DNA from: Fervidobacterium sp.
Lineage (GTDB): Bacteria > Thermotogota > Thermotogae > Thermotogales > Fervidobacteriaceae
Length of the DNA stretch: 64,000 nucleotides
Direction of reading: 5' to 3'
NCBI GenBank assembly: GCA_026419195.1
Contig: JANZZV010000006.1
Location: 62,001 to 126,000 of the forward strand
In this document: positions 1,400-45,778 of the stretch, one piece after another
Numbering within the stretch: the stretch's first letter is position 1
Layout: the number at the start of each line of letters is the position of its first letter
Made by a program: the position numbers and the translations under genes
Notes under the pieces: generated by a model
Database searches by the model: none
The model's input: only the letters and a program-made list of their open reading frames with translations
What the model was told of the DNA's origin: nothing

Positions 1400-1444
1400 A
1401 TTGAACATATATTTACAGCAAGAAAATAATAAGTTGATACAAAC

Positions 1445-2386: not shown

Positions 2387-2391
2387 AAACC

Positions 2392-3039
2392 TTATTCCTC
2401 CTTGTTTGAAAACATTATTTTTCCTATGTTGTAACCAATCGATGCCCCAAATAGTACATCTGATGTCCAGTGATTATTAGACCATAACCTTTGGGCAGAA
2501 ATTACCATAGGTACTGCAAACCAAAAATCACCAAATCTTAAAGAAAGAGGTGTGAAGATTGCCCAAGATAATGCCGAATGACCAGATGGAAATGATTGAT
2601 AATCTTTTGAAAAGTTCAAAGGCTTAAAAGCATAGGGATTATTCTCAACATACGGTCTCATGCGACCGGTTAAGAACTTTGTTAGACCTACCACTATCGT
2701 TGTAAAAGTAAAACTTTCCAAGATAGTAAAGCTTGTGTAAGAATCAATAGGAAATACTATTGCCGATGCCAAAATTGCTAAGCCAAGAAAATGTGGAAAA
2801 TCGAGCTTATCAAGAAAGCTCAAAAACGATGACTTCGGATAAACCCTGCTGAGTGTTTCATCAAATACAAATACAATTGCAGAGAAAGTTGTAAGGGGAT
2901 GTGAAAGAAATTCTTCGATATTTCCTGACAGACTTGCGATATCACCTTTCAGTTCTAAAAAACAATCACCTCGGGAAAATCCTACAAAAAAGAGAAGAAT
3001 TACAATGAAAAATGTTAAATACACTTTACTAAAATCCAC
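2392..3039 (-). CDS. PAP2-family membrane phosphatase
   Basis: This 215-residue membrane protein has the three phosphatase motifs of the type 2 phosphatidic acid phosphatase superfamily: KFLTGRMRP near 125, PSGHS near 151 and NNHWTSDVLFG near 190. These provide the lysine/arginine, histidine and histidine/aspartate active-site residues. The family dephosphorylates lipid phosphates such as phosphatidate or undecaprenyl diphosphate at the membrane; the substrate here is not determined. An N-terminal hydrophobic segment is followed by several more. The GTG start (3037-3039) directly abuts the TAA of the upstream aminotransferase fusion, indicating translational coupling. Confidence 0.88.
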   Translation of the reverse strand: MDFSKVYLTFFIVILLFFVGFSRGDCFLELKGDIASLSGNIEEFLSHPLTTFSAIVFVFDETLSRVYPKSSFLSFLDKLDFPHFLGLAILASAIVFPIDSYTSFTILESFTFTTIVVGLTKFLTGRMRPYVENNPYAFKPLNFSKDYQSFPSGHSALSWAIFTPLSLRFGDFWFAVPMVISAQRLWSNNHWTSDVLFGASIGYNIGKIMFSNKEE

Positions 3040-16336: not shown

Positions 16337-19300
16337 TTATTTGCTTATTATTTTAAACATTGGTAAGTTCAGTGTTGAGATAGGTTTAACAACTGGGAAC
16401 TCAGATATATCGTACAGTAACAAACCTTTATCACTTCCCACGACCATGATTCTTGCATCTGCCTCAGTATGGAATGCATAAGTCAGTCCGTTAAAAGGAA
16501 TACTAATAATGTCACGCGTAGCATCAAATGCTCCTAAATTTCTAATACTTACTATTTTAACACCACTTCCACCACCTGAAACAAAGAGCAAATCGCCAAA
16601 CCATGAAATATTTCTTGCTGGCGCACCCGCAAACAACGGGGTTTTACTTAAATCATCGCTTTCTTTTTCAATTAAGTTTGTACCGTTTCTATCAAGTATC
16701 CAAATTCCGTTATAGTCACCATCTGCGATGAATATTCTGTCAAAATACTTGTCTACTGCTACAGCGGAATCTATACCTGGGTTATACCTTTGAAGTCTAT
16801 ACGTTCCCCCTCCTTGTTCTTCAACCACAACGTAGTACGTAGTTGGAATTTCCAAGTCTTGTGACAAGCTTGTTATATTACCACTGGAATCTACACCCAA
16901 TTTGTATCTAATTGTTCCCGCTCTCCCACATGTAACAAGTAAATAGGAAGGATTCTGAGATTGTGACAAATAATCAACAACGACTTGTATACTTCTCGGT
17001 TCAACCGCCTCTTGCATCGGAACGCTTATTTTTGGTATTCGTTGATCAACATTAACTGGTAAGACCGATGACCTTATTGTATTACCATTTTGATCGAAGA
17101 TCTCAATAATATTGTTGCCTGCTTTACGACCAAGTACATAAGCTCTTCCTTGTGCATCTATTGCGACATCGTATAAAGCTTGGTAACCTGTGAGATTCAA
17201 CGATTTTACTTGTGATAAAGTTAAATTTGCGTAATCGAAATCGTACAATTTGGCAGATATTGTCTCAGTGTTTGCAACGACTATTTTAGCTACTTTTTCG
17301 GAACTAGTTTTTGGTACAGCTTTCAACTTCACATCGATTTTGTTAAAGTATTCGCCAGTATCGTAACGACGAACAGTAGGTTCAAGCACGTTTCTTAAAT
17401 CTATAACGTAAAGTCCGTTACAATAAAAACCATCGCCGACACCAAACAAGAAGTTGTTGATATAGTTTAAATCAAGTAATTTGTACATCTTATCTGGTTC
17501 GTATTTTGAATCATTTCTATATGTAATTAAACCTCTACCACCATCTAAGACAACTGAATTATCACCCACAAAGAGCAAGTCATTGAATTGAGAGCCTGGT
17601 TCGTATTCGATGTTATTCCCTGATGTGTTATTTGTCCATTTTCTAATTCTGTCGATTGTAAATGCGTACAAACTATTGTTGTATATTCTTACGCCTTTCA
17701 CTTCTGTATCAAATGTACCACCTGACAAAGACGTGATGGAGGCTGGAGGTAATTCTCCATCAGATCTTTCCGCATCTGCAAGTTTCACATACTTCACATC
17801 TTTGCCTACGGCGAGCGCTATGACTTGTTCGTTATTGAACTGACCTATTTCCAGATCGTTGATTTGGTTGTCGTAAATTAATCTTATATCATTTATTGTA
17901 ATATTTGGAACGTTTGATAGATTTAGTCTAAGTAGTCCACCAATGTTGTTAGCAATGTAAGCGCTGTCAGCAGCCAGCTTTATAGTCATTATTTTACCCT
18001 GTGTAATATTTATCTTAGAGTTTGTTGTCTTACTTGTCTTGCTAAACACAGAATTTACAGGTAAAGTAAATGTTTTTAATGTCTTTCCAAAGTTTTTACT
18101 TGTCAATATTGGTTCTGATGGATTTGTAAGATCAACAAGGCGAATTCCGTTGCTTCCTTCACCAATGATCGCGTAGTTCTTGTAGATTTTAATGGCACTA
18201 AGAGTTGTCCCAAGGTCTACCTTTTTCACGATTTTTGGATTAGACTTGTCGGAAGCGTTTATAACATAAAGATTCGTACCTCCGACAGCATAGATATAAT
18301 CTTCGGCCACATCAAAATCAGTGAATGATACATTATCAATCAAAGCGACAAAACCTTCTATTTTTACAGTTGGAAGACTATAGGTATTTGCTATATTTAT
18401 TACTGATTTACCGTCAAAACTTTTTGAAAGGATATACGAATATCTTGGTGAAGAAACTGTTTTGAAGGTAACTTGTGCTGTTGAAGAAGCATTTTGTAAA
18501 TCGTACACTGTTACTTGAATAGAATATGTTGTGTCATAATTAAGATTCGGTAATATTGCTTCTGTTGAAGTAGTTTCGATTGTTAAAACATCGGTTCCAT
18601 TTGTTTTTAACACAAGCTTGTATCTTAAAACATCTCCATTATCAGGGTCTTGTCCCCTCCAGCGTGCAGTGAGAGAAACCGGTGTTTTCTCATTATTGTA
18701 AGGTTGCAAAATAGAAACAGATGGTGGATTATTTTGGTAAGTTAAAGACGTTATCTCCTGCCTTCTTTCTTGTTCGGCACCAAATTCATCTCTTGCCATA
18801 ACAACAACTGTGTAATTCCCTCTTGGAAGAGAAGCAACGTTTATTTCTTTAGAAAGGTCTGTCCAAGTAGATATTACCTTTCCAGAAGAATCGATTAGTT
18901 GACCTTGTTTATACACGATATTATCGCCTTCTGGTTCAGAAATCGTTACGGTTAAAATCTTAGAAACATTGTCGTAGTTAAATTCGATCTTTGGTGGTAA
19001 ATTTGCAATTTTGATTGTTTTTGTGAACGAATCTTGTAAAACAGTTGAGCCATTTTGTTGGCTGTAAAGTTCTATTGTGAGTGTATGATTCATATTGAAG
19101 AAGTCACTACTTAACTCAAGCTTACTATTGTGATCCTTTAGCTTGAAAGTATCTGCTGTAGATTGATTGAGTAATGTTATCTTATCGATTTTGACAGTGT
19201 ATTTTGCATTTGTTGTGTCTTTTGCATCAATATCAAATTCTCCTACTCTGTTTACCTTCACAGGTTCTTGCATGTATTCCATGCTTTGTCCTTCGTATTT

Positions 19301-20623
19301 GACTCTTAGTATTTCATTCACAGGTGATGAATTTATACCCTCTGAAACGTTATTCGATTTGCCAAATTTGTCCTTGGCTTCTACATGTATTTCATACAAA
19401 CCTTTGTCTAAGGTGTCTACTCTTTTTGACCAGCTAAGTACGTTAATTTTTTCTTCGATAACCGTATCTGGATTACCTTTTCTTATCAATTTTATTGTGG
19501 ATTGGACATCGTCATTGTCAAGCTCAACGATCGTTACAGTAGCGTATCTTGTGGTCTTTGACATTGGATCTACATCAACTTTGATCAAAGGCGCTTCGTT
19601 TATTATCTTGATCTTCTTGACAAACGAGTCTTGGAGAATGCCCTTATCGTTATATAAATCAATCTTTAAGTTAACTACCTTGTCTTTGCTGAAGTATTCA
19701 TCCCAAGGTACATCCTTGTTGTTATTGTATTTTTTCAGTTCGAAGGACACTTCTGTTGAATTAGTTGTTATGGAATCCAAATTTATATAACTAAGTTCTC
19801 CAATTTCTATCTTGTAAGTTGCTTTGGTATCTATATCAGTTGTAACTTTAAACTTGCCATAACGATTTACAACAAATGGCTCGTCATAGTACCTAAGGTT
19901 TTTTTCTTCATATCTGACAGCTATTATTGAATATGTTTGCTTTAGTCTTATATATTTTTCCAATTTTGCCTCTGCGCCGTATTGATCTTTTGCATAAACT
20001 CTCAATATATAAACATTTGGCACGAGATTAAGTGATGTGAGGTTTATATTTAGTTCTGTTTCCTTAGCTGACCAATAAACTTTTCCATTTGTGTCTACTA
20101 TTTCAGTATTAGAAATCGCTATAATGTCATTTTCCGGATCGATTATTTTAACGTTTACAACCGAGGTTTCAGGTCCTATCTTGTCCGGATTTATTGTTAT
20201 TTCTGGTGCTTCGTTTATTATCTTGATTTGTTTCGTGATACTTGCTGTTTTGTTATTACTACTTACAGATATTGTCAACTGGTGTGGTGTCTTAAAAAAT
20301 TCTTCACTCAGTCTGTTTTTCAGCTCCGAAGAACTTTCATAATCTTTGAATTTTATTTTGTTTTTTCCTTGTTCATTAACGAAAACAATGTTGTCTATTT
20401 TCCATAAATAAATTCCTCCGTTGACACCTGTTACTTTTACTTCAATTTCTTTGGTTCTTTTTATTTCTAAAAAGTTTTCGTTCTTATAATCTTTACCTTC
20501 GTATAAGAGAGAAGTTATTTGTGGAGTTTGTTGTACTACACAAGAATTCACAAGTAAAGACACTAAGAAAATCATTACCACAAGCAATCCATAAGCACAA
20601 AGATGAAGATACCTCTTTTTCAT
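16337..20623 (-). CDS. Large surface lipoprotein with Ig-like repeats and a beta-propeller
   Basis: This 1428-residue protein starts with a signal peptide ending in the lipobox LLVNSC, so the cysteine near residue 29 should be lipidated. Residues about 40-650 contain four or more similar 100-150-residue beta-sandwich units: a bridging IKIINEAP or IKIANLPP segment, then Y-x-V-x-A-K-D/E-x-F/Y-G-A closing strands. A fibronectin type III-like unit (NPPSVSILQP) follows. The C-terminal half has repeated blades like LYVINASDKSNPKIV and GIRLVDLTNPSEPI, typical of LVIVD-type beta-propellers. It is probably a structural or binding protein at the cell surface. AAGGAGGGA before ATG 20623 decides the start, 12 codons after an upstream in-frame start. 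Confidence 0.85.
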   Translation of the reverse strand: MKKRYLHLCAYGLLVVMIFLVSLLVNSCVVQQTPQITSLLYEGKDYKNENFLEIKRTKEIEVKVTGVNGGIYLWKIDNIVFVNEQGKNKIKFKDYESSSELKNRLSEEFFKTPHQLTISVSSNNKTASITKQIKIINEAPEITINPDKIGPETSVVNVKIIDPENDIIAISNTEIVDTNGKVYWSAKETELNINLTSLNLVPNVYILRVYAKDQYGAEAKLEKYIRLKQTYSIIAVRYEEKNLRYYDEPFVVNRYGKFKVTTDIDTKATYKIEIGELSYINLDSITTNSTEVSFELKKYNNNKDVPWDEYFSKDKVVNLKIDLYNDKGILQDSFVKKIKIINEAPLIKVDVDPMSKTTRYATVTIVELDNDDVQSTIKLIRKGNPDTVIEEKINVLSWSKRVDTLDKGLYEIHVEAKDKFGKSNNVSEGINSSPVNEILRVKYEGQSMEYMQEPVKVNRVGEFDIDAKDTTNAKYTVKIDKITLLNQSTADTFKLKDHNSKLELSSDFFNMNHTLTIELYSQQNGSTVLQDSFTKTIKIANLPPKIEFNYDNVSKILTVTISEPEGDNIVYKQGQLIDSSGKVISTWTDLSKEINVASLPRGNYTVVVMARDEFGAEQERRQEITSLTYQNNPPSVSILQPYNNEKTPVSLTARWRGQDPDNGDVLRYKLVLKTNGTDVLTIETTSTEAILPNLNYDTTYSIQVTVYDLQNASSTAQVTFKTVSSPRYSYILSKSFDGKSVINIANTYSLPTVKIEGFVALIDNVSFTDFDVAEDYIYAVGGTNLYVINASDKSNPKIVKKVDLGTTLSAIKIYKNYAIIGEGSNGIRLVDLTNPSEPILTSKNFGKTLKTFTLPVNSVFSKTSKTTNSKINITQGKIMTIKLAADSAYIANNIGGLLRLNLSNVPNITINDIRLIYDNQINDLEIGQFNNEQVIALAVGKDVKYVKLADAERSDGELPPASITSLSGGTFDTEVKGVRIYNNSLYAFTIDRIRKWTNNTSGNNIEYEPGSQFNDLLFVGDNSVVLDGGRGLITYRNDSKYEPDKMYKLLDLNYINNFLFGVGDGFYCNGLYVIDLRNVLEPTVRRYDTGEYFNKIDVKLKAVPKTSSEKVAKIVVANTETISAKLYDFDYANLTLSQVKSLNLTGYQALYDVAIDAQGRAYVLGRKAGNNIIEIFDQNGNTIRSSVLPVNVDQRIPKISVPMQEAVEPRSIQVVVDYLSQSQNPSYLLVTCGRAGTIRYKLGVDSSGNITSLSQDLEIPTTYYVVVEEQGGGTYRLQRYNPGIDSAVAVDKYFDRIFIADGDYNGIWILDRNGTNLIEKESDDLSKTPLFAGAPARNISWFGDLLFVSGGGSGVKIVSIRNLGAFDATRDIISIPFNGLTYAFHTEADARIMVVGSDKGLLLYDISEFPVVKPISTLNLPMFKIISK

Positions 20624-20642
20624 ATAAAAAGTCCCTCCTTCT

Positions 20643-20670
20643 AACACGTGTTTTTTCAATAGATTGAAAA
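20643..20670. repeat. Two adjacent palindromes in the lipoprotein leader
   Basis: AACACGTGTT (20643-20652) is a perfect 10-base palindrome. TTTTCAAT-AG-ATTGAAAA (20653-20670) is a perfect inverted repeat with 8-base arms. Both lie just upstream of the ribosome site of the lipoprotein gene and are candidate operators or mRNA hairpins. Confidence 0.55.
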
Positions 20671-30246: not shown

Positions 30247-30319
30247 ATACTTAAAATACACCAGATATTTTAAACTATACTATTATGCTTGTAAACTGCA
30301 ATTGTAGGAGGGATTTTTG

Positions 30320-31120
30320 GTGGATAGAGAAGTAAAAGAAGCTTTTGATTTTATAAAAACCATGGTTAAGAATAATCCAAAAATAGCCCTTATTCTTGGT
30401 TCTGGACTAGGTTTTCTATCAGATTTTGTTGAGAACAAAGTAGAAATTTTGTACCAAGATATACCAAATTTTCCTTATTCAACTGCACCTGGACATGAGG
30501 GAAAACTTGTATTTGGAACGTTGTTTGGTAAAGAGGTTGTTGTTTTAAGCGGAAGGTTTCACATATACGAAGGTTGGAAACCTTCCGACATAAAGATAGT
30601 TGTACATACTTTGAAATTAATAGGGATAGAAAGAATGCTCGTTACCAACGCAGCTGGTGCTATTAACGTATCTTACAACCCTGGCGACATTATAATTGTT
30701 AAGGATATTATAAATTTCATGTTTAGAAATCCTTTGAGAGGTCCAAATGATGATGATATTGGTCCTCGTTTTCCAGATATGCTCGGTGCCTTCGATAAAA
30801 TATGGATGGGTAGGTTAAAGGAAATTTATCCAAACATAAAAGAGGGAGTCTACGTAGGTGTCACAGGTCCTACATATGAAACACCAGCGGAAATAAGAGC
30901 CTTTAGAAAGATAGGAGCAGATCTTGTTGGAATGTCCACAGTCCCTGAGTTAATCGCCTGTGCACATGTTGGTATCAAGGCTTTAGTACTTTCTTGTGCA
31001 ACAAATATGGCAGCTGGTGTACTTGAGAAGCCTCTTTCTCATGAAGAAGTTATGGAAGTAGCAAGCGAAGTAAAGGAAAAGTTCATAGAAATAGTCAAAA
31101 AGGCTTTGGAGGTAGTTTGA
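30320..31120 (+). CDS. Purine nucleoside phosphorylase
   Basis: It cleaves purine nucleosides with phosphate to the free base and (deoxy)ribose-1-phosphate. The 266-residue length and motifs LILGSGLGFL (phosphate loop), YSTAPGHEGKL, GRFHIYEGW and NAAGAIN fit the trimeric class II (PunA-type) family. TGPTYETPAEIRAFRKIGAD and GMSTVPE complete the active site. GGAGGGA lies six bases before GTG 30320; TTG 30317 is an alternative one codon earlier. The stop overlaps the ribosome site of the DHH gene. Confidence 0.95.
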   Translation: MDREVKEAFDFIKTMVKNNPKIALILGSGLGFLSDFVENKVEILYQDIPNFPYSTAPGHEGKLVFGTLFGKEVVVLSGRFHIYEGWKPSDIKIVVHTLKLIGIERMLVTNAAGAINVSYNPGDIIIVKDIINFMFRNPLRGPNDDDIGPRFPDMLGAFDKIWMGRLKEIYPNIKEGVYVGVTGPTYETPAEIRAFRKIGADLVGMSTVPELIACAHVGIKALVLSCATNMAAGVLEKPLSHEEVMEVASEVKEKFIEIVKKALEVV

Positions 31121-31122
31121 AA

Positions 31123-32112
31123 ATGAATAGGGATTTCTTAAATATAGTTGCAGAATTAAATACGGCTTTTAAGGTTCTTGTTGTTGGTCATATAATGCCA
31201 GACGGAGACGATGTAAGTTCTGTGCTAAGTGCTATGTATGGTTTGAAAAGGCTTGGGAAAGAAGTAATCGCCGGAATTGACTGGAAAATACCTTGGTACT
31301 TTTATGAATTTGAAGAGGTTTCTCAAATACAATCGTATGATACAGTAAGTGAAATGAAATTTGATCCAGATGTTGTGTTGGTTGTTGATGTATCCAGTCC
31401 AGATAGAGTTGGTAGGTTTCAGGAATTTTTCAACAATAAGAAAGTGTTCGTAGTTGATCATCACGGAACAAATACATTTTTTGGTACTTACAATTGGATT
31501 GATACAAAATTTGGTTCAACTGCTCAGATGATTTTGAGGATAAATACAGAGCTGGGTGTTCAATACGATGAGCGTTTAGCAACGTTAAACCTCATGGGGA
31601 TAGCCACCGATACTGGATTTTTCAGATACACCAACGCAGACGAAATTGTCTTTTCAGATGCTACAAAGCTTGTATCACTTGGTGGAAAGATGCATTTGAT
31701 TTCAAGAATTTTTGAAAACAAACGCATCGAGCAATTCAAATTGCTTTCAACTATGATCGAACACATGAGAATGGAGCTTGATGGGATGATAGTGTATTCA
31801 TACCTTTCTAAACAAGATTACGAGAATAACAATTGCACAGAAGATGATAGTGGAGGTTTTGTAAGTGAACTAAGGTCAATTCGTGGCGTTGAACTTGCGA
31901 TTTTCCTATCTGAATATGAATTTGGGGAAGTACACGTAAGTCTTAGATCAAGAGACTGGTTTGATTGTAGCAGACTTGCTGTTTTACTTGGTGGTGGAGG
32001 TCATCCGAGAGCCGCAGGTTGTACACTTAAAGGAAATCTTGAGTCTATCGTGGAAGAAGTTATTAGAGAAGCTAAGAATATGTTTGTTTCCCAAAAAGCT
32101 TTGCAGTTTTGA
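31123..32112 (+). CDS. DHH-DHHA1 family phosphoesterase (NrnA-like)
   Basis: This 329-residue protein has the four DHH motifs: GHIMPDGDDVSS, VVDVSSPDR, VVDHHGTN and GIATDTGFFRYT, plus the C-terminal DHHA1 GGGGHPRAAGC. NrnA-type enzymes cut short oligoribonucleotides and dinucleotides, including pGpG and pApA, and dephosphorylate pAp; Mn2+ is the usual metal. The two neighbouring GGDEF proteins make a pGpG role attractive, but that is inference. GGAGG before ATG 31123 favours this start over the TTG two codons earlier. Confidence 0.93.
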   Translation: MNRDFLNIVAELNTAFKVLVVGHIMPDGDDVSSVLSAMYGLKRLGKEVIAGIDWKIPWYFYEFEEVSQIQSYDTVSEMKFDPDVVLVVDVSSPDRVGRFQEFFNNKKVFVVDHHGTNTFFGTYNWIDTKFGSTAQMILRINTELGVQYDERLATLNLMGIATDTGFFRYTNADEIVFSDATKLVSLGGKMHLISRIFENKRIEQFKLLSTMIEHMRMELDGMIVYSYLSKQDYENNNCTEDDSGGFVSELRSIRGVELAIFLSEYEFGEVHVSLRSRDWFDCSRLAVLLGGGGHPRAAGCTLKGNLESIVEEVIREAKNMFVSQKALQF

Positions 32113-32121
32113 AATTATTTA

Positions 32122-35100
32122 ATGTCAGAATCCTTAATATTATTCAGGGGGGAATTTAGTATTATCTTGAACTCAAATAGTATGGTGTTTTTTAGGGAAG
32201 TATACTCCGGAAGTGAGTATATAGAAAGTTCTTTGTACGATATTAACAATAAATATTTAGTAAGGGTAATCCCAAAAAAATTCATCGATTCGTTCTTGGA
32301 TTTTGTTGTCCATGTAAATCAGTTTACGCACATTCCAAATACGTTCTTACCAACAACTGTTGAATCCAAAGGTGAAAACATTATTGTTAAGTTCAAGTAT
32401 TTTAATGAAAAACCTTTAACAGAAATAATTGATAAACTTTCAGAAGAAGATTTAAATGAGATAGTAAAAGAACTTTTGAACTATCTGTATGGTGTTATCA
32501 ATGGAATATATCCCCCCGTTCCATGCATTTCTTTAGATGATATATTTGTTTACGCAGGGCAATTTTTCTTTTTACCACCATTGATACAATCGAAAAATGT
32601 ACTAAGCAAAATTTTGAAAAAGAGCAACGTAAACAGCTTATTCGTCGCCCCTGAGTTCCTCAAAGAAGGAGTTTGCAATGATAAATCCACCTTTTATGCC
32701 ATCGGAAAATTTATCCAAACTCTTGACAAGGACAAAAAATATGAAAGCTTAACAGAAAACTTGACATTAGATGATCCTGAGAAACGAAACATAACCCCAG
32801 AATTAATTGATAAGCTCGTAACTTACAATAGGAATTTGGTACGAGAAATTGAACCAATAATCAGAGACAAAATATCTGAGACAAGACAGCATTATCATAC
32901 GATCGAAATTCATGGAGCAAGCTATAATGAATTTAAAAGCATCTTGGGAGCTATTTATAAGGAATTTGCTCGGCTTGAAAGTTCGTTGTTCATTTGCGTT
33001 GAAGATGATTTTACAAATATTCCAAGGCAGTTACTTGCTAAATACAAGCATCTGTTGAATCCTGACGAATTAGAAATTCTTTATCCAACACTTTATGCAA
33101 ACACAAAGTTTAATAGCATATTGCCAGTGCTAATTGGTGTCTTGAATAGAGCAAAGTTTGTATTTTTGTGCGTAGAAGACGTTGACAACGGTGACTACCT
33201 TATCAGGACGTTTTTGAGTCATCTTCGCACAATTAGAATGGAGTCCAAGATAATTGTCATAACAAGAAACTCAAGTCGACCAGATGTGAAGTTAACTGTC
33301 AAAAACATATCGCAAAAATACAAATGTAATAAAATAACAAATGGTAAAGAGAAAATATTAGCCGTACTTGGGCAAAGATTTAAGCAATTGGAAATGATTT
33401 TACTTGAAAAAATCACAAATGAAGATCTCGAAAAATACTTGAAAAGATACTTAAAAAGAGGAATAATCTCGAAAGAAGGCAATGAGTACGTGTTTGACGA
33501 AAATGTATGGAACTCTATTTACAATCAAATTCCGCTGGAAGAACGGGTAAGTTTACACTTGAGTTTAGCAAAAAAATTGGTTAGTTTATCAGACCCGTTT
33601 AACCTTTCTTTACTTAAGAGCTCATTCCATTACATTATGGCTGGAAAGGAAATTTCAGCGGTTATTGTGTGCTTAAAATTCGTTAAGAAGAACCTTGAAA
33701 CTTACACTTTTTCAACCGAAAGAATGAAAGATGCACTTTTTTCTGCATATGAAATATTAAAAAAACACAACAGGATTGATTCTTACGCATTTAATTCGAT
33801 ATTGCTCAGGTTTAGATATCAATCTTTGGAGGAACTTGACAATATCGTATTGAGCTTACCTGAGGGCAAAATTAATAATTTCCTTATTTTGCTTGAGAAT
33901 TTCGTGAATGAAAACCATAAACAAGTCATCGTAGAATTCGAAAGGTCATTTGAAAAACCTTACATTTGGAGTGCTAAAAGAAGAAATTTCAAACAACTTA
34001 AGGCATATCTGCTATATCAATATTCGTATTACAATCTGAATGATACAATAGAGGACAAAGATTTTTTAAAAGATCTGTTTGAAAATATCCCGGAGATCAA
34101 TAACGAGTGGACAAAATTGAAAAGTGAATATATCTTACTGTATATACTCTTCCTAATTTACAAAAATAGGAGCGAAGCAATTAAGTACGCTGAAAAAGCA
34201 AAACAGTTGATAGAAAAAAGTGGAGCAAAATATTTAATGATTAGACTGGAAAACGCAGTAGGTACACTGAACGATATGGCAGCGATTTCCATAGAAAATT
34301 TTAAACGTGCAATACAAATATCCTTAGAGATCGGTTATTCAAAACGTTCATTAGTTCCTTATGTAAACCTTTTACGTTCATTACTTTATTTTGGTTTTAT
34401 TGAGGAACTAAAAGAAGAAATAAAGAAGACTCAAGGCTATGTTTCGCTTTGGAGGAATGCGTCAGACTTAGCATTTTATTACAGAATATTAGCCTTTTTA
34501 CCAATGTATGAACAAAAACATGATGAGGCAGACGAATCCTTGAAAAGAGCCTTGGATTTTGAAAGATCCAACAATTTACAGCAAGCGTCGTTGAGAGGGA
34601 TCATACTTAATGAACTTTTGTGTGGTAATTTTGAAGCTGCCAAAAAGGTTGCGCTTGAAAACATAGATAACCCTGCTGTCAAAACACGTGCCTTTGAATA
34701 TCTCATCGAAATGCTTCTTGCGAAAGATGACGAAGAATTCAAAAATGTATGGATTGAATACAGAAACTCTCCATACCACCTTTTGAGAGAAGAGATACTC
34801 TACATCTTTTCAGATAGGATATCAGAGTTAGACGAAGAAGGATTTTTAAAGGAGATAAGAGCTTGGGAAGACACCTATACTTCTGGTGGTGTAAATCTTT
34901 CCTTATTTTACATCTTGCTTGCAAAGTATAGATATCTTGAAAGAAAAGGAAACAAAGTACGAAGTGAGTTTATCAGATCTGAAATATGCAACTTGGCAGA
35001 GATAATGAAGAGTTTTCAGCACCCTTTTTTGTACAAGTGTTCAAGCGCAGATGTGGGTGGCGTAAATTCTATACTACACACTCTTAAACGTCTTGATTTA

Positions 35101-35898
35101 AATGTATCATTAAGTAATTTTGTCAAGCTTTTTGCAAGTGAAATATATCGTCTTTTTAAGGCACAAAGATTTAGTATAGGAATTTTTGATAGTTTTAGTA
35201 ACATTAGCTATGAAATGTCTAACACTAATAAGATACCTGAGAATGAGGTTTTTAATTTGCATCCTTTTGAATTACTAATTAAAGACAGAATAGATGAATA
35301 CTCTTATTACCACATTTACATTTATAGCGAAGAGCTTGCATTTCCAAAAGAAGAAAGTCTTGAAGATATAATCACGCTTGTGGAAGAGCTTTTCACAGGT
35401 CAGCTTAAGGGAATCATATTCAGAGAACGTGCAAGCATAGATAGTTTAACTGGTTTGTACAACAGATGGAAGTTAAATCAATTGATAGACGAAAAACTCG
35501 ATAAAAAGACCGATGTTTTTTCCATCTTTATTATGGACATAGATGATTTTAAGAAGATCAACGATAGTTATGGTCATATTGTTGGTGACAAAGTTTTAAT
35601 TGAAATTGCCAACTTACTTAAAAATTTGAATGTAAACGATAATGTTGTTGCACGATATGGTGGGGAAGAATTTGTTGGTCTGATTTGTTCCAAAAAAGCA
35701 GTTGCGCTGAAGATTTGTAAAGAAATCAAAAGTTTGATAGCTAAGACAATGAACGATAAGTTTGGATTTGAGGTTACTGTAAGCATTGGAATTGCAGATT
35801 CAACGGAGAAAAATACAAGATCAGAGCTCTTAGGACTTGCAGATCAAAGGTTGTACGAAGCTAAAAACAGTGGTAAAAATACAATCGTAACTGATTGA
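32122..35898 (+). CDS. Pseudokinase-degenerate ATPase-helical repeat-GGDEF protein A
   Basis: This 1258-residue cytoplasmic protein ends in a diguanylate cyclase domain (about 1100-1258): DSLTGLYNRWKL, FIMDIDDFKKINDSYGH and ARYGGEEF at 1180-1184. The N-terminus (about 1-230) resembles a protein kinase C-lobe: SLFVAPEFL near 173 (APE motif), STFYAIGKF, then DDPEKRN; there is no HRD catalytic loop, so it is a pseudokinase. Residues 260-450 match the ATPase region of the following paralogue but lack a P-loop. The middle is helical, TPR-like. The RxxD inhibitory site before GGEEF is absent. It lies 9 bases after the DHH gene; ATG 32122 has a poor ribosome site, so translation may be coupled. It overlaps protein B's ORF start. 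Confidence 0.82.
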   Translation: MSESLILFRGEFSIILNSNSMVFFREVYSGSEYIESSLYDINNKYLVRVIPKKFIDSFLDFVVHVNQFTHIPNTFLPTTVESKGENIIVKFKYFNEKPLTEIIDKLSEEDLNEIVKELLNYLYGVINGIYPPVPCISLDDIFVYAGQFFFLPPLIQSKNVLSKILKKSNVNSLFVAPEFLKEGVCNDKSTFYAIGKFIQTLDKDKKYESLTENLTLDDPEKRNITPELIDKLVTYNRNLVREIEPIIRDKISETRQHYHTIEIHGASYNEFKSILGAIYKEFARLESSLFICVEDDFTNIPRQLLAKYKHLLNPDELEILYPTLYANTKFNSILPVLIGVLNRAKFVFLCVEDVDNGDYLIRTFLSHLRTIRMESKIIVITRNSSRPDVKLTVKNISQKYKCNKITNGKEKILAVLGQRFKQLEMILLEKITNEDLEKYLKRYLKRGIISKEGNEYVFDENVWNSIYNQIPLEERVSLHLSLAKKLVSLSDPFNLSLLKSSFHYIMAGKEISAVIVCLKFVKKNLETYTFSTERMKDALFSAYEILKKHNRIDSYAFNSILLRFRYQSLEELDNIVLSLPEGKINNFLILLENFVNENHKQVIVEFERSFEKPYIWSAKRRNFKQLKAYLLYQYSYYNLNDTIEDKDFLKDLFENIPEINNEWTKLKSEYILLYILFLIYKNRSEAIKYAEKAKQLIEKSGAKYLMIRLENAVGTLNDMAAISIENFKRAIQISLEIGYSKRSLVPYVNLLRSLLYFGFIEELKEEIKKTQGYVSLWRNASDLAFYYRILAFLPMYEQKHDEADESLKRALDFERSNNLQQASLRGIILNELLCGNFEAAKKVALENIDNPAVKTRAFEYLIEMLLAKDDEEFKNVWIEYRNSPYHLLREEILYIFSDRISELDEEGFLKEIRAWEDTYTSGGVNLSLFYILLAKYRYLERKGNKVRSEFIRSEICNLAEIMKSFQHPFLYKCSSADVGGVNSILHTLKRLDLNVSLSNFVKLFASEIYRLFKAQRFSIGIFDSFSNISYEMSNTNKIPENEVFNLHPFELLIKDRIDEYSYYHIYIYSEELAFPKEESLEDIITLVEELFTGQLKGIIFRERASIDSLTGLYNRWKLNQLIDEKLDKKTDVFSIFIMDIDDFKKINDSYGHIVGDKVLIEIANLLKNLNVNDNVVARYGGEEFVGLICSKKAVALKICKEIKSLIAKTMNDKFGFEVTVSIGIADSTEKNTRSELLGLADQRLYEAKNSGKNTIVTD

Positions 35899-35921
35899 AA
35901 AAAATTGGGTGGTGGCAAGGT

Positions 35922-38900
35922 GTGGAAAGAGTTGGAGAAAAATTAGAAATCATAGAGTTTGTTAATGAAACCTATTGGAGTAAAGACTACATTGCTGAGT
36001 TGGACGGAAGAAGAAAGATTGTAAAGTTTGTCAAAGAAAACTTGATTTTAAGGCCTGATGAGGTTGTGATGAAATCGGAACTGGCGAGAAACGTGTATGG
36101 TTTGTTATTACCAGAAAGGTTTATTTTTGAAAACGTTCCTATTTTAATTTACGATGTAAACAACGTTGAATTTTATGATAAGTTTGCTGCTCGGCAAAAA
36201 GAAGTAATAGTTTCATTTCTACTAAGCTTACTTAAAAACATTCTGCATGTTCCAAAACTTTTCTTGCCAGTTCTCGGATTTGATGACATAGTTCAGGTGG
36301 ACGACGAGATATTACTTTTTCTACCATTTGTACAAAATTATGTTAAGCTTTCAGCCCTCCAAGATAAAGACGAGGGAAGTCTTTTCATAGCACCTGAAAT
36401 CCTTCACGAGCAAAATCTTACAGATTCGTCAACACTTTATGTGTTTGGTAAACTATTAGACATTATTTCAGAAGATGAAGTTGTTAAAGCAATAGCAAAA
36501 CAGTTAAGTGCACAAGACCCCAAGGAAAGAAAGTTTAAAGAAGATATACCTTTCTCAAGTATATTGAAAAACAAAAGGACCTTAGCGCTCAAGAGAATAG
36601 TCAGAGAAGAAGAGAAGGCGATCATCAAATTTATTACCTCTAAGGATACAGATAAGAAATTTCTTGGTGTTATTGGAACTCAAAGGATAGGTAAAACGAC
36701 TATCGTTGAAAACATTGAAAACGCGCTTAGAGAAATTGGTACACCGTTCCTTCACGCTGTGTCTGGATCAGACGTGATTATTCAAACATTACAACTTGTA
36801 TCAGATAAGATAAGCGAAGAATTATTTGAAGAACTTACAGAGTGTATTGAAAAAACATGTAAAATCGATACAGTTTCAATGGCTTTAGTCCAAGCCCTTT
36901 CTGTTTTGAGCAACGTGGTGATTATTGTTGATGACTACCATGAAGTATCTGAAACTTTGAGAGCGTTACTACGGAAAATGGCTACCATGATAAAGGGTTC
37001 TAATATAAAAATAATCGCTTTTAGCGTTGAAAATTTTGAAGAATTTGAAGATAAGATCAATTTAACACCATTTTCCGTGGAACAAACAAAAGAATTATTG
37101 AAAGCTTCGTTTTCAAAAGTATGGGAAGCAGACATACTTAGTCAATGGCTAACAAATGTTTCAGCCGGTTTACCTGGACTTATAGTTGAATATATAAAAT
37201 ATCTTTATGAAAACGATGTTATTTATTTTTCTAAAGGGGAACTAAGATATGATATCGACAAGTTAGAACAGCTGCAATTTAACAACATCTTTAGTGAAAA
37301 ACTAAGCAAATTTATCAACAAAGTAGAACAGTATGTTGCCGTTTTAGGCCAGAAGTTCAATAATTCAGAATTAAAACAACTTGAAGTTGAGTTGAAGAAG
37401 AAAATAGATGTCAACCAACTCATTTCAGATGGAGTTGTATACAAAGAATATGACAAGTATAGATTTACGCTGAGGCAATATTGGGAATTCTTGTACAACA
37501 GCATACCATCTGAAACAAGAAACGAAATACATAAAGAGCTTTCGAAAAAAGTTAATGATACATTTAAGAGGGCATGGCACTTAGAAATGATAGGTGAGAA
37601 AATAAATGCTGCAACTGTTTATTTAAAATATATAAAAGAGTTGTTAGAATACTATGCTTCTCCTTCACTTGTTAAATCGGTGATACGTAAAGTTAAGGAA
37701 ATCATCGGTAACAGAACTTCTTACGCTCTTGTAAAATTTGAAGTTGAACTACTTACACGAACAGAAGAGATAACAGAGTTAATAACATTAGAAATTCCTG
37801 AGAATAGGTTGTTTTCTTATTACATAGCTAAGAAATACTTTTCTTCATATAAAGAGCAAGAAGCTATGGAGATATTGAGCAAATATCCAAAGGCCTATGG
37901 TTCAATAGGTGAAATAAAAAGGAATTTGCTTTATTTAATGGCTGAATTTGAAGTTGGGAAAAAAAGAAAAGAATATGTTAACAGAACTTTTGCCCTGATT
38001 GCAAATCTTAGAGAAGATAACCCTATTCATGCCGGCATACTTGTGGATGCGTATATTTTCATATCGAGAGTGCTTTCAGATAACCCGCACCGTGCTTTTT
38101 ACTATTTAAAAAAGGCGGAGAAAATAGCACTCGAGTTCAACCTGGCTCATAAACTTCCGATTATCTACAACAACATGTCAACAGAAAGTTCAAATACAAA
38201 CATATCCATGACATTTCTTCAGAGAGCAGTCGATGTAGCAAACGATATAGGACTTCCAGCTCGAGGATACATGGCAAAATTAAATATGCTTTACCATGCA
38301 CTTTACGCTGGAAAGATAAAAGACTTTGTGACAGGGATTGCCAATGTTAGACCAAAAATTGAGCTTTTAGGCCTTTCCGACGAGTTGGCATATAGCCATA
38401 TCTTAGAGGCATATTATCATGCTTACAATTTTGAATACGAAGAGGCTTTAGTACACATTGGGGAGTCTGAGAAAATTTCTGGGAAAGCTAACGAGCTTGA
38501 ACGTATGTTCATCAGTGCTATAGTTAGGAAATTTGACAGTTTCAATACATATCTTTCAAAGATTGATATTTCAAATTTATCAGATGACTCGAGAGCTGTT
38601 ATAGAAATTTTGGGAAATTTAAATAATGAGGAACTTGGGTTAAAATGGGAGAAATACATCAACAGCGGTGGAAGAATTTTTAGAGAGGAAATTTGTGCAA
38701 TTGCAGGTGATAAATTGTCACGCTTGAAGCCCGAGCTCTTTAGAAAGGAGCTAGGATATTTAGAGAACAGATTCGTACTTGATGGTAGTTTACTGTCTCT
38801 TGCAATGGTCTACGAAGGTTATGGACATTATTATAAAGAAATTGGAAAATTATATAAAGCAAATGTATACTATCAAAAAGCAATTACACTTTACAAAGAC

Positions 38901-39896
38901 ATAGGTATGTTAAATGCATCAAAAATTTTGTCACAGACTTATAACGTTAGCACAGTTGATTTGGAACCTGGTGAGCTTGAAGATACGAAAAATTTATCAA
39001 TAGATATTCTAACAAGTCTCAAGGTTATTGATCCAAAAACGGATCCGCAGATTCTACTTGATTACTTTGTCTCAAAAGTTTTGACCGTTTTTCCGGTGAA
39101 GAATGTGTATTTTAAGATTCATGACAATGTACTGGACAGAGATTTTGAAAGTGGATGGGGTGAGTTTAGAAGTTTTGAAAAAGACTACTTAGTGTTGTCT
39201 CCGTTAGAGATTTATCTTACAGACAATTTTGATCAAAAATCTAAATATGAAATATATGCTTCGAATCCAACTCTATCTCTTCCAGAATACTTTAAGAATA
39301 ATATTATAGCAAAGTTGGAAATAATAGAATACGGTTTTGTTGCAGTTTTCAAAGGCGTTTTAACAAGAATGAGGAGCTATATAGATCCGCTTACAAAGCT
39401 ATTTACAAGATATTATTTTTCCGAGCTTTTGGCTCAACATTTTGAAAATGCTGTTAACCAAAAAGATAGTTTATCTATAGTGATGTGTGATATAGACAAT
39501 TTCAAAAAAATAAACGATACATATGGACACTTGACAGGGGATAGGGTACTTAAAATTATTGCTAAACTACTTAGAGAAAACATTCGATCGACCGACATCG
39601 TCGGACGATTTGGAGGAGAGGAATTTATAATATCCTTTCCATCAACAGATGTTGAGGAAACAAAATCAATTCTTGAAAGATTAAGGCGCCACATACGTGA
39701 CTTGACAGAATTTCCTTTCAAAATAACGCTGAGTTTTGGTGTTGTAAACCATCCTGAAAACACAGGCGGAATTATAATACAGTCCCCGGAAGATCTTATC
39801 AGGTTAGCAGATACTGCTTTGTATCATGCTAAAAATACCGGAAAAGACAAGATAGTAGTCTATTCGGAGGGAATGACGGGTGGATTGCATGCATAA
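35922..39896 (+). CDS. Pseudokinase-P-loop ATPase-helical repeat-GGDEF protein B
   Basis: This 1324-residue paralogue of protein A has the same order: a kinase-like C-lobe (SLFIAPEILHEQ, STLYVFGKLL, DPKERK) without a catalytic loop, then a P-loop ATPase with GTQRIGKTT near 252 and Walker B VVIIVDDYHE. TPR-like helices, a GAF-like region (near 1040-1150) and a GGDEF domain follow: DPLTKLFTRYYF, MCDIDNFKKINDTYGH and GRFGGEEF near 1231. The RxxD inhibitory site (RSTD) is present. The layout resembles PknK/MalT-type STAND proteins. GGTGGTGG favours GTG 35922; an upstream TTG at 35895 overlaps protein A by four bases. Its end overlaps murB. Confidence 0.84.
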   Translation: MERVGEKLEIIEFVNETYWSKDYIAELDGRRKIVKFVKENLILRPDEVVMKSELARNVYGLLLPERFIFENVPILIYDVNNVEFYDKFAARQKEVIVSFLLSLLKNILHVPKLFLPVLGFDDIVQVDDEILLFLPFVQNYVKLSALQDKDEGSLFIAPEILHEQNLTDSSTLYVFGKLLDIISEDEVVKAIAKQLSAQDPKERKFKEDIPFSSILKNKRTLALKRIVREEEKAIIKFITSKDTDKKFLGVIGTQRIGKTTIVENIENALREIGTPFLHAVSGSDVIIQTLQLVSDKISEELFEELTECIEKTCKIDTVSMALVQALSVLSNVVIIVDDYHEVSETLRALLRKMATMIKGSNIKIIAFSVENFEEFEDKINLTPFSVEQTKELLKASFSKVWEADILSQWLTNVSAGLPGLIVEYIKYLYENDVIYFSKGELRYDIDKLEQLQFNNIFSEKLSKFINKVEQYVAVLGQKFNNSELKQLEVELKKKIDVNQLISDGVVYKEYDKYRFTLRQYWEFLYNSIPSETRNEIHKELSKKVNDTFKRAWHLEMIGEKINAATVYLKYIKELLEYYASPSLVKSVIRKVKEIIGNRTSYALVKFEVELLTRTEEITELITLEIPENRLFSYYIAKKYFSSYKEQEAMEILSKYPKAYGSIGEIKRNLLYLMAEFEVGKKRKEYVNRTFALIANLREDNPIHAGILVDAYIFISRVLSDNPHRAFYYLKKAEKIALEFNLAHKLPIIYNNMSTESSNTNISMTFLQRAVDVANDIGLPARGYMAKLNMLYHALYAGKIKDFVTGIANVRPKIELLGLSDELAYSHILEAYYHAYNFEYEEALVHIGESEKISGKANELERMFISAIVRKFDSFNTYLSKIDISNLSDDSRAVIEILGNLNNEELGLKWEKYINSGGRIFREEICAIAGDKLSRLKPELFRKELGYLENRFVLDGSLLSLAMVYEGYGHYYKEIGKLYKANVYYQKAITLYKDIGMLNASKILSQTYNVSTVDLEPGELEDTKNLSIDILTSLKVIDPKTDPQILLDYFVSKVLTVFPVKNVYFKIHDNVLDRDFESGWGEFRSFEKDYLVLSPLEIYLTDNFDQKSKYEIYASNPTLSLPEYFKNNIIAKLEIIEYGFVAVFKGVLTRMRSYIDPLTKLFTRYYFSELLAQHFENAVNQKDSLSIVMCDIDNFKKINDTYGHLTGDRVLKIIAKLLRENIRSTDIVGRFGGEEFIISFPSTDVEETKSILERLRRHIRDLTEFPFKITLSFGVVNHPENTGGIIIQSPEDLIRLADTALYHAKNTGKDKIVVYSEGMTGGLHA

Positions 39897-42657: not shown

Positions 42658-42678
42658 TCTCTGAATTTGGTGATTTCT

Positions 42679-44070
42679 ATGTTTTTTAAGACAGTGAGAT
42701 ACCTTATTATTATTATTTTTACTTTCTTACTCTCATCATCTTTCTTAGCACTCACAGTAATATCCGAAAACGGCGCAATGGTATATTACAATGGTTTCCT
42801 AATAGGTGTGGTGAAAAACAATTCATTGTCTTTTCCTGCAAGTTTTCCTGGTTGGCTTCGCGTAGCTAAACCTGGATACTTAACTTTTGAAAAAGAAATA
42901 ACAGAAGATGGTACTGTTGTTGCTAATTTAGCATTTCCAAGTTATCTTAAGGTTAATGTTGCCTTAGAAAATGCAGAGCTTTACATAAACGACATCAAAT
43001 ATTCTCCTGGGGAACTACACGCATTGAGACCTGGGTATTATAAAATAAAAATATCTGCTCCAGGCTACACGACCAAAACCATCGAGCTTTTTCTTGATAA
43101 AAACGAAGAAAAAATCTTGGACGTGAATTTGAAAAAGACAGTAACACTAACAATCAACTCAGTGCAAAAAATTTCGAATGTTCTTATAGATGGAAAAGTC
43201 ATCGACGTTCCACACACACTTGAAGTTTTACCAGGCAAGTACCGCTTGATACTTTCGGGTGATTATGTTAAAAACATTCAAGAGTTTGATGTACCACCAG
43301 TTGATAGTTACTCAATAACATTAGATCTTCAAAAAAAGTATGAGCTACAAATATCGGGTGAACCAGAGTATGCTTATGTAAGGATAAACAATGAGATTTA
43401 TAGATTACCATACAGAAACAAACTTTCTGAAGGGTTTTATAACATTGTTATCTTCGCTGACGGATATAAAGAAGAGACAAGAAGACTGGAGTTAAAAGAA
43501 AATACAGTGATAAACTACATGTTGGAACCACAAAAATTGTATAAATCAAACTTTTTGGATAAAGATTACATTGTCAAATTTGATGGTTTTGTAAGAGAAA
43601 GACTTATTCCAAAAGCTTATTTTACGACGGTATCTGACAAAAACAACAACATAATATGGGTTGGTTTTTCTGACGGGACTTTTAACAAAATCCCGACAAC
43701 AATACCAATACTTATAAACTCAGACTACCAAGTGACAATTAACAACAAAGCGTACATTGGACCTGCTGTATTGCAAATAGAAAACGGTCAAAAGATAAGC
43801 TTATACAACAAATTCACAGGTACAGAAACAGTGATTGTAGACAAACTTACAATCTTTGATAGCGTGGAGAAATGTTTAGTAAATATCTATTCAAAGACAG
43901 GTTTAGATGTATTTTGGGATGGGAAATACATTGGAAAAACTCCCATTTACCTTTTTATGACGAGCAGTGGCATGCATGAACTATTGTTGAAAAAAGGTGA
44001 ACGAGAGATTTTTAAAAGTTTGGTCTCCGTTTCTCAAGGTAAACTTAATGAGTTTTCAATTGATGAGTAA
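42679..44070 (+). CDS. Exported PEGA-repeat protein
   Basis: This 463-residue protein has a signal peptide or N-terminal anchor (LIIIIFTFLLSSSFLAL). At least five beta-rich units follow with PEGA-like signatures: FPGWLRVAKPGYL, LRPGYYKIKISAPGY, LPGKYRLILSG, SEGFYNIVIFADGY and YIGKTPIYLFMTSSGMHEL. PEGA units are found in surface and cell-envelope proteins. It directly precedes the Omp-alpha-like gene (16 bases), so a structural role in the periplasm or toga is likely. ATG 42679 follows a weak GGTGAT. Confidence 0.85.
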   Translation: MFFKTVRYLIIIIFTFLLSSSFLALTVISENGAMVYYNGFLIGVVKNNSLSFPASFPGWLRVAKPGYLTFEKEITEDGTVVANLAFPSYLKVNVALENAELYINDIKYSPGELHALRPGYYKIKISAPGYTTKTIELFLDKNEEKILDVNLKKTVTLTINSVQKISNVLIDGKVIDVPHTLEVLPGKYRLILSGDYVKNIQEFDVPPVDSYSITLDLQKKYELQISGEPEYAYVRINNEIYRLPYRNKLSEGFYNIVIFADGYKEETRRLELKENTVINYMLEPQKLYKSNFLDKDYIVKFDGFVRERLIPKAYFTTVSDKNNNIIWVGFSDGTFNKIPTTIPILINSDYQVTINNKAYIGPAVLQIENGQKISLYNKFTGTETVIVDKLTIFDSVEKCLVNIYSKTGLDVFWDGKYIGKTPIYLFMTSSGMHELLLKKGEREIFKSLVSVSQGKLNEFSIDE

Positions 44071-44086
44071 AAAAGGAGTGTGGAAA

Positions 44087-45778
44087 ATGAAAAACAGTCG
44101 TCTCAGGTTTTTATCGATTGTTTTTTTAATATTTTCAGCATTTTTATTAGGTGCTGTAAATATCAAAGATCTTTCTCCATCGGCAAGTACTTACAAAGCG
44201 GTAAGCGATTTAATTGAAAAGAAGATAATGGACATTGACTCTAACGGAAACTTTAAACCTTCTTTGCTAATAACAAAACTAGACTTGGCAAGGTATTTGT
44301 ATAACCTTATAGATTACTACAATCTTGATACTTCTTTGAAAACTTCTTCGCAACAAACAGGCTTAGGCGCTGAGGATCTACGTAAGCTCGACGGTAGAAT
44401 TACTGGTATTGAAAAGAACGTACAAAGCATTCAAAGTACATTAAATGATTTGAAGAAAGTTGATAGTAAGGTTTTAGAAATGGAGAAGAATATTCAAAGT
44501 ATTCAAAGCGACTTGAGTAAAATAAACAGTAGAATCTCCGTAATAGAGCGAGGTTTACTAAATCCTCAAGATGTAAGTAAATTAGGAAGCAGGATTGATG
44601 GAATTGAAAAAGATTTAAAGGAAATTCAGAACAATCTTGTTAAGCTTGAGAACAAGCTATCTACGATTGAAAAAAACTTATCAGTTGTCCAAGACTCAAG
44701 CAAAATCTCTGGAAGAGTTTCAGATATTGAAAAGCAAATACAAAGTTTTCAAAGTGATTTAAACAAAATTGAGGGCAAAATCTCAGGACTTGAGAAAAAC
44801 ATTCAGAGTGTTCAAGATGCGGGAAAGCTTGGCAGTAAAATTTCTGACATTGAGAAAGCTGTTCAAAATATCGAAAGTAATTCAACGAAGCTTAACAACA
44901 AAATCTCCGGTTTAGATGTAGACCTCCAAAATCTTCAAACTTTGGTGAGCAGATTAGAAAAAAGGTTGGCTAATTTGGAAGGAAATTACAAACCTAAAAC
45001 CGAAGAACTTGAAGGGCAACTTTCGACTTTGCAAAAAACTGTTCAGAGTGTTTCTCAAGGAATTCTAAAACTGCAAGGTGATATTGAAGGATTGAAAAAC
45101 AATATCCAAAGTAATTTAAAGTCTGTTTTAGAGTCTCATGCATCAGATGTAAATTCTTTAAATAGCGAGATACAAAAATTGTCTAAGAAAATGAGTGATA
45201 TAGAAAAGAGTTTAGATAACTACTCTAAAAGCCTTGAAGAAGTGACAAAAAAATTAAAGGAGCTTGAGAACACTCAAAATAAACTTGAATCAAATCTTCA
45301 AAACAACATGGCGAAAACAAGTAACTTAGAAATCGAGCTGAAAAATTCAGATCTTCAGCTGGATAAAAGATTGTCAAAAATAGAAGAATTGATAAACAAA
45401 ACAGATGATTTTATAAAGAGGATAGAATCGGCTGATGTCATAACAATAGCAAACACTTTCAGCAATCTTCAGTTGATTACCAATCGTTTTGATCAGCTCG
45501 ATTCAAGATTATCCGAGCTAGAAAAAAAAGATAGCATCTCAACAGAAACGCTGCTCAAAGAATTGAACCAACTTAGGACTGAAAATAATAACAACATGAA
45601 CAAATTACAGAACGATATTTCCCAACAAAGGGCTAATCAACAAAGTACATTAGAACAATTAACATCCCAAAAAAAAGAAATTGAGGACTTAAAAAACGAA
45701 CTGAATATAACAAGATTGGTAGCCTTGATCAGTCTTGCTTTGTCACTGATTTTTGGAATACTTTTTGTCATTCAATAA
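44087..45778 (+). CDS. Omp-alpha-like toga protein (SLH-coiled coil-membrane anchor)
   Basis: This 563-residue protein has a signal peptide (about 1-23), an SLH-like domain (IKDLSPSASTYKAVSDLIEKKIM...TKLDLARYLYNLI) and a coiled coil (about 95-535). The coiled coil is made of repeated 20-45-residue units such as ISDIEKAVQNI and ISGLEKNIQSV. It ends in one hydrophobic helix (VALISLALSLIFGILFVIQ). This is the layout of Thermotoga Omp-alpha, a rod that bridges the cell wall and the outer toga. AAGGAGTG precedes ATG 44087; an upstream in-frame start lies inside the PEGA gene. Confidence 0.93.
   Translation: MKNSRLRFLSIVFLIFSAFLLGAVNIKDLSPSASTYKAVSDLIEKKIMDIDSNGNFKPSLLITKLDLARYLYNLIDYYNLDTSLKTSSQQTGLGAEDLRKLDGRITGIEKNVQSIQSTLNDLKKVDSKVLEMEKNIQSIQSDLSKINSRISVIERGLLNPQDVSKLGSRIDGIEKDLKEIQNNLVKLENKLSTIEKNLSVVQDSSKISGRVSDIEKQIQSFQSDLNKIEGKISGLEKNIQSVQDAGKLGSKISDIEKAVQNIESNSTKLNNKISGLDVDLQNLQTLVSRLEKRLANLEGNYKPKTEELEGQLSTLQKTVQSVSQGILKLQGDIEGLKNNIQSNLKSVLESHASDVNSLNSEIQKLSKKMSDIEKSLDNYSKSLEEVTKKLKELENTQNKLESNLQNNMAKTSNLEIELKNSDLQLDKRLSKIEELINKTDDFIKRIESADVITIANTFSNLQLITNRFDQLDSRLSELEKKDSISTETLLKELNQLRTENNNNMNKLQNDISQQRANQQSTLEQLTSQKKEIEDLKNELNITRLVALISLALSLIFGILFVIQ

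Follow-up and report, generated by a model that had tools for sequence, protein, structure and literature searches.

In a 64,000-nucleotide (nt) stretch of a Fervidobacterium sp. genome (assembly GCA_026419195.1, contig JANZZV010000006.1, positions 62,001 to 126,000; hereinafter the window), two adjacent genes encode large paralogous proteins, hereinafter designated A and B, that both end in a GGDEF diguanylate cyclase domain. Protein B has the features expected of a STAND-type ATPase joined to this cyclase, and protein A, as judged from its sequence, is a cyclase with neither a nucleotide switch nor product inhibition. We favour, with about even confidence, the reading that A works with B as a cyclase half and that B is a STAND-type diguanylate cyclase producing cyclic di-GMP (c-di-GMP).

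Both open reading frames are exact as listed in Table 1. Gene A starts with ATG; protein B comprises 1333 residues from a TTG codon, or about 1324 from an inner start, and the stop of A overlaps the start of B by 4 nt. BLASTP aligns the two proteins with 26% identity over 928 columns (E = 5e-63), and a second block (E = 4e-12) spans the N-terminal and ATPase regions, in agreement with an earlier reading of the DNA (the original prediction), which described adjacent giant paralogues sharing one layout. Pfam detects GGDEF in both proteins, above the curated cut-off (123 and 149 bits); its only other match is a weak AAA domain in B.

Protein A lacks the switch and feedback residues that protein B retains

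Residues were tabulated for 11 A proteins and for 47 B proteins and relatives. The position of the P-loop lysine is occupied by K in all B relatives and by F, Y or L in all A proteins, and the GRE-like arginine is R in all B proteins and falls in an alignment gap in all A proteins. The GxP helical subdomain, 81 residues long in B, is reduced to a remnant of 15-29 residues in all 11 A proteins (15 in the A protein of the window). No [AG]xxxxGK[ST] motif occurs anywhere in the 11 A proteins, and the second P-loop that would have told against the original prediction is absent. With no P-loop and a curtailed GxP helical subdomain in 11 of 11 cases, A appears by sequence to derive from a STAND protein and not to be a working one.

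The inhibitory RxxD site of B reads RSTD (residues 1231-1234). It precedes GG(D/E)EF by five residues in every B relative whose sequence extends that far, with one extra intervening residue in two genomes, and is found in none of the 10 A proteins that reach it. The retention of P-loop and RxxD in B and the loss of both from A were foreseen correctly, as was the presence of GGEEF in A, which B retains also. Each of the 10 A proteins extending into the GGDEF domain has D327, N335, H340, D344, GGEEF and K442 (PleD numbering), and D327, N335, D344, GG(D/E)EF and K442 are conserved in every A and B protein reaching the site. Both GGDEF cyclases look competent by these residues, and A does not look like an inactive cyclase. 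Because all checked cyclase residues are kept in A as in B, the notion of an active/inactive pair, also part of the original prediction, has to be given up.

Between nine species, sequence identity is 29% for A versus 57% for B in the NTPase region, 47% versus 54% in the second half of the TPR region, and 56% versus 69% in the GGDEF domain. The latter two parts of A are thus more constrained than its NTPase region, a pattern that we count in favour of A working with B. On average, A evolves faster than B in every domain.

Predicted pseudokinase, STAND ATPase and sensor domains of protein B

Pfam and NCBIfam give no kinase match in A or B, and among 39 members scanned only one matches a kinase family (PK_Tyr_Ser-Thr, E = 0.04). 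Without a match from the sequence libraries, the kinase call depends on structure together with an APE/S..YVFGK/DPxxR pattern. An AlphaFold2 model of B residues 14-240, computed from an input of ten sequences, taken from the window and from fetched loci (pLDDT 84.7, pTM 0.83), shows three strands, helix C and two further strands, as in a kinase N-lobe, followed by a shortened C-lobe. In a Foldseek search of the PDB (E down to 4.5e-7, probability 1.00, query TM score 0.44-0.65), the best 50 matches are all chains of protein-kinase or lipid-kinase (PI3-kinase) fold, among them ILK and MLKL, both pseudokinases, and the mycobacterial PknI. Searching the PDB with a profile of the N-terminal alignment gives weak matches only (best E = 0.14), five of nine of them to kinases, in the APE region. 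The alignment retains APE, the S..YVFGK helix-F pattern and DPxxR, and protein A retains VAPEFL and KSTFYAIGK.

No HRD or DFG motif is found in A, B or the aligned relatives from other families. The model of B has the two-lobed fold of eukaryotic-like Ser/Thr protein kinases and B lacks their HRD and DFG catalytic aspartates; we assign it as a predicted pseudokinase fold, two-lobed and shortened, and the N-terminal domain of A, by alignment the same domain, as pseudokinase-like. A kinase-like C-lobe without a catalytic loop had been predicted here: the missing catalytic motifs stand, the restriction to a C-lobe does not, and the modelling of the N-terminus that had been proposed as a check, run on B, returned a kinase fold. 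Because HRD and DFG are absent even from relatives in distant families, the pseudokinase state probably dates back to the ancestor shared by these proteins. The C-lobe of family f7 is among the most kinase-like (VAPEIL..SASDTYVLGKIL..DPKVRPS), still without HRD or DFG.

In families f3 and f10 the APE region is lost too: B homologues at loci L075-L081 (f10) and L055-L059 and L086 (f3) carry a P-loop and GGDEF and have lost the kinase APE/helix-F region. Their sequences point to decay of the pseudokinase in separate lineages.

The AlphaFold2 model of B residues 232-1168 (pLDDT 86.9, pTM 0.79) comprises an NTPase, a winged helix, a long TPR-like solenoid, a small GAF-type alpha/beta domain and a 33-residue helix leading into GGDEF. 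Its top PDB match is PH0952, a STAND-TPR crystal structure (6mfv; E = 1e-9, 734 columns), and MalT (8bob) matches at E = 3e-4 in Foldseek. Pfam AAA_22 matches B at E = 3e-5, and B relatives match the STAND/NACHT families ATPase_2 (E = 3.7e-12), nSTAND_NTPase5, AAA_16 and NACHT. The two glycines and the lysine of the P-loop (GTQRIGKTT, residues 261-269 of B), the Walker B D346 and the GxP glycines are invariant in all tabulated B relatives, and the GxP proline is present in all but three. Sequence and model together assign B as a STAND-type signal ATPase; what the original prediction called an ATPase region and helical repeats can be specified as a STAND NTPase and a TPR sensor, and the resemblance to MalT that it proposed to examine is evident in the model.

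The GAF-like domain and long helix between the TPRs and GGDEF are additions to the earlier layout. The GAF-like assignment is tentative: a GAF_3 profile matches two of 39 members (E = 0.05), the strand and helix order of the model fits GAF, and a profile of the region retrieved nothing useful from the PDB. Pfam and NCBIfam give no helix-turn-helix match in A or B, and the C-terminus of each is GGDEF, so the DNA-binding effector of MalT/LuxR proteins is missing.

Protein A is found only beside protein B

Protein B occurs in all 20 genomes searched from its own family (cut by contig ends in two) and in all 11 from family f2; shorter or more divergent versions occur in families f3, f7, f10 and f11. 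An f3 homologue (L087, genome G092, 748-3690) is seemingly split into open frames of 981 and 295 residues, possibly by a frameshift. Protein A occurs in nine of nine Fervidobacterium genomes and in two of two genomes of one sister genus, and a search with a profile of A finds none in the remaining nine genomes of the family. The A gene lies directly upstream of B wherever contigs allow in the 11 genomes that carry it, and no genome has A without B (11/11); in the fragmented assembly G074, A and B lie on separate contigs, the end of A still upstream of B. A scan of the genome collection yielded six loci, and no plasmid homologue was found. The expectation that the gene pair recurs in other Thermotogota is borne out for B, which is widespread, and not for A, which is confined to 11 genomes of two genera; within those genomes the pair is conserved without exception, contrary to an absence from all relatives.

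The phylogenetic tree groups the A proteins in a single clade that branches outside every B protein of the family (SH-aLRT 98). A late duplication within the two genera, which would place A beside their own B proteins, was rejected by the approximately unbiased (AU) test (p = 0.005), although the long branch of A could mislead both the tree placement and the AU result. Because of this placement and the rejection of a late origin, the tree suggests an older duplication, before the family radiated, followed by loss of A.

A model for a mixed A-B cyclase

STAND-TPR proteins are closed with ADP at rest and, once inducer-bound, multimerize with ATP, under double autoinhibition (PMC6468293). By analogy, an inducer would be sensed by the TPR solenoid of B, perhaps jointly with the pseudokinase and GAF-like domains, whereupon the closed, ADP-bound ATPase would open, take up ATP and multimerize. 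The GAF helix of B would then bring GGDEF domains together for c-di-GMP synthesis, limited by RxxD. Such ADP/ATP switching of B, and the control of c-di-GMP output by ATP binding to B, are expected from the behaviour of these relatives, and c-di-GMP synthesis by A and B is predicted from their residues. Protein A, a duplicate that would have lost ATP binding and the switch subdomain and kept the helical, GAF-like and cyclase parts, would dock with B through the common GAF-helix-GGDEF module (or the TPRs), contributing a cyclase half that depends on B for switching and is itself exempt from shut-off by product.

Because A persists, always beside B, although ATP cannot switch it, joining the assembly of B is the simplest account of A, and an A-B heteromer is plausible. 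In line with this, the evolutionary distances of A and B co-vary beyond those of two neighbouring genes (partial r = 0.91, nine genomes), compared with 0.10 for A and MurB and 0.15 for B and MurB. Surface protein P0003 (not universal), FeoB and radical-SAM (only six A-bearing genomes sampled) were tried as further rate controls and not used. Several observations weigh against a working partnership of A with B. The rate co-variation is weak, covering only nine genomes and two slow control genes; the gap between A and B is about 25-80 nt in other genomes, and fixed co-translation is not general; an early duplication implies a later loss of A from three genera, which get by with only B; and A could homodimerize and act alone.

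The last point leads to the main rival, in which A is an independent cyclase, constitutive or under TPR/GAF-like control only, supplying high-output c-di-GMP beside the regulated B. We regard this as a real possibility, if a lesser one: GGDEF cyclases usually homodimerize, A keeps all catalytic residues and has lost RxxD, and the two genes do not overlap in other genomes, but A never occurs in a genome without B, and most of A is conserved despite the missing nucleotide switch, with the pseudokinase part still recognizable. A regulatory role for A, dampening B through dead-end mixed assemblies in which the ATP-driven STAND ring stays incomplete, in a dominant-negative-like manner, would draw on the loss of P-loop, GRE-like arginine and helical subdomain from all A proteins, which should block STAND multimerization at the ATPase level; the fully conserved cyclase site, needless for a purely blocking subunit, makes this unlikely. 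Finally, the faster average evolution of A in every domain is what a decaying, functionless duplicate on its way to a pseudogene would show. That explanation is already largely refuted, and very improbable in our view, by reading frames that are unbroken in every genome (a contig end truncates one) and by retained cyclase residues in a GGDEF domain that stays 56% identical across nine species in a protein elsewhere strongly divergent.

Genomic context

Table 1. Features of the A-B locus (window coordinates).
Feature	Position	Strand	Remarks
Purine nucleoside phosphorylase (PNP)	30317..31120	+	First in same-strand run PNP-DHH-A-B-MurB-M18
DHH/DHHA1 phosphoesterase, NrnA-like	31117..32112	+	Pfam DHH, DHHA1; upstream of A
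Protein A, STAND-GGDEF paralogue, predicted nucleotide-dead, without feedback site, 1258 aa	32122..35898	+	
A pseudokinase-like N-terminal domain, aa 15-243	32164..32850	+	Alignment; same domain as B
A STAND NTPase remnant, about aa 242-402	32845..33327	+	P-loop gone
A GAF-like domain and connecting helix, about aa 980-1100	35059..35421	+	Alignment with B
A GGDEF, aa 1104-1253	35431..35880	+	GGEEF 35659-35673; no RxxD; Pfam E = 1.1e-35
Protein B, predicted pseudokinase-STAND-TPR-GAF-like-GGDEF, 1333 aa	35895..39896	+	
B predicted pseudokinase domain, aa 14-235	35934..36599	+	AlphaFold2 model, Foldseek
B STAND NTPase (nucleotide-binding domain, NBD)	36600..37019	+	P-loop 36675-36701; Walker B VVIIVDDYHE 36915-36944
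B helical subdomain, GxP (GLPG, 37167-37178), winged-helix/arm region	37020..37574	+	Boundary approximate
B TPR-like helical repeat sensor	37575..38909	+	AlphaFold2 model; Foldseek to PH0952, MalT
B GAF-like domain and long connecting helix	38967..39359	+	AlphaFold2 strand/helix order
B GGDEF	39378..39848	+	RxxD 39585-39596; GGEEF 39612-39626; Pfam E = 1.7e-43

The order PNP, DHH, (A), B, MurB, M18 aminopeptidase is kept in the family of the window where flanks are readable, and in families f1, f2 and f3 every readable flank places a DHH gene immediately before B (or A-B). The DHH protein matches NCBIfam NrnA over its full length (E = 3.5e-25, 88.6 bits), below the equivalog cut-off of 350 bits, and appears NrnA-like by sequence without being assigned as NrnA. 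Because pGpG, the linear product of c-di-GMP, is broken down by Bacillus NrnA enzymes (PMC6256023), the DHH-STAND-GGDEF gene link may be functional, through pGpG or nanoRNA and c-di-GMP turnover. We consider rather doubtful a stronger version of the A-B partnership, an obligate mixed STAND assembly in which the B-type subunit would give the ATP switch and product feedback, A a feedback-immune cyclase half, and the DHH protein would clear the breakdown product. Promoter and terminator scans performed no better on the window than on shuffled sequences.

In keeping with the favoured reading, the genome is fully equipped for c-di-GMP signalling, with 20 GGDEF, 16 HD_5, 2 EAL and 2 PilZ matches. 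Outside the window, a GGDEF gene and two HD-GYP (HD_5) genes are neighbours within 3 kb (G000:C6:143280-146101). An early rise in c-di-GMP has been reported for F. islandicum on keratin; the A and B genes are not named in the accessible part of that report (PMC13157175).

Elsewhere in the window, 16337-20659 on the reverse strand encodes a 1440-residue surface-type protein with, by eye, LVIVD-like and fibronectin-like repeats, whose long relatives occur in only some Fervidobacterium genomes. A 593-residue protein at 43997-45778 (with 42667-44070 upstream) has an SLH-like N-terminus, a very long heptad coiled coil and a C-terminal hydrophobic helix, and presumably resembles an Omp-alpha type toga spacer.

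Discussion

None of the components is new: STAND ATPases, pseudokinases, GGDEF cyclases and degenerate twins have all been described. PH0952 of Pyrococcus horikoshii and MalT share with B an NBD with P-loop and GxP, a winged helix, an arm and a TPR sensor, but their effector is a DNA-binding domain, whereas B has an N-terminal pseudokinase and C-terminal GAF-like and GGDEF domains; A differs from them further in having lost the nucleotide switch. The kinase PknK of Mycobacterium tuberculosis, assigned to the STAND family (PMC9045387), also joins a kinase domain to STAND. It is an active Ser/Thr kinase, however, and B-family proteins lack HRD and DFG, end in GGDEF and do not qualify as PknK. 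PleD, WspR and tDGC of Thermotoga maritima (PMC4215984) resemble A and B in their catalytic residues and in the order of sensor, helix and GGDEF, and share RxxD feedback with B and not with A; they are regulated by Rec or GAF domains, whereas the input to A and B would come from a pseudokinase-STAND-TPR machine. The accessible part of a survey of NTPase-centred conflict systems lists catalytically disrupted kinase domains and, rarely, GGDEF among their parts; those systems differ in their vWA-MoxR NTPase and gene make-up, and no such pair appears there (PMC7159879). We found no description of the pseudokinase-STAND-TPR-GGDEF combination in the open-access literature searched, and the original prediction, which knew of no described system pairing pseudokinase and GGDEF in this way, agrees with that search.

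The STAND switch, best known from immunity and transcription control, would here feed a second-messenger cyclase, and several Thermotogota families have preserved the accompanying pseudokinase fold. The tandem pair is a clean natural experiment, seen in eleven genomes: one twin no longer has ATP switching or feedback but still has its catalytic residues. Little is known of what pseudokinases do in bacteria or of how degenerate STAND subunits work, and two thermophile proteins make both questions directly testable. If true, an obligate mixed A-B assembly would be a bacterial counterpart of the sensor/helper splits in STAND immune receptors, with c-di-GMP as output. The position of the gene for an NrnA-like enzyme in this gene order suggests that synthesis of c-di-GMP and removal of pGpG may be encoded together.

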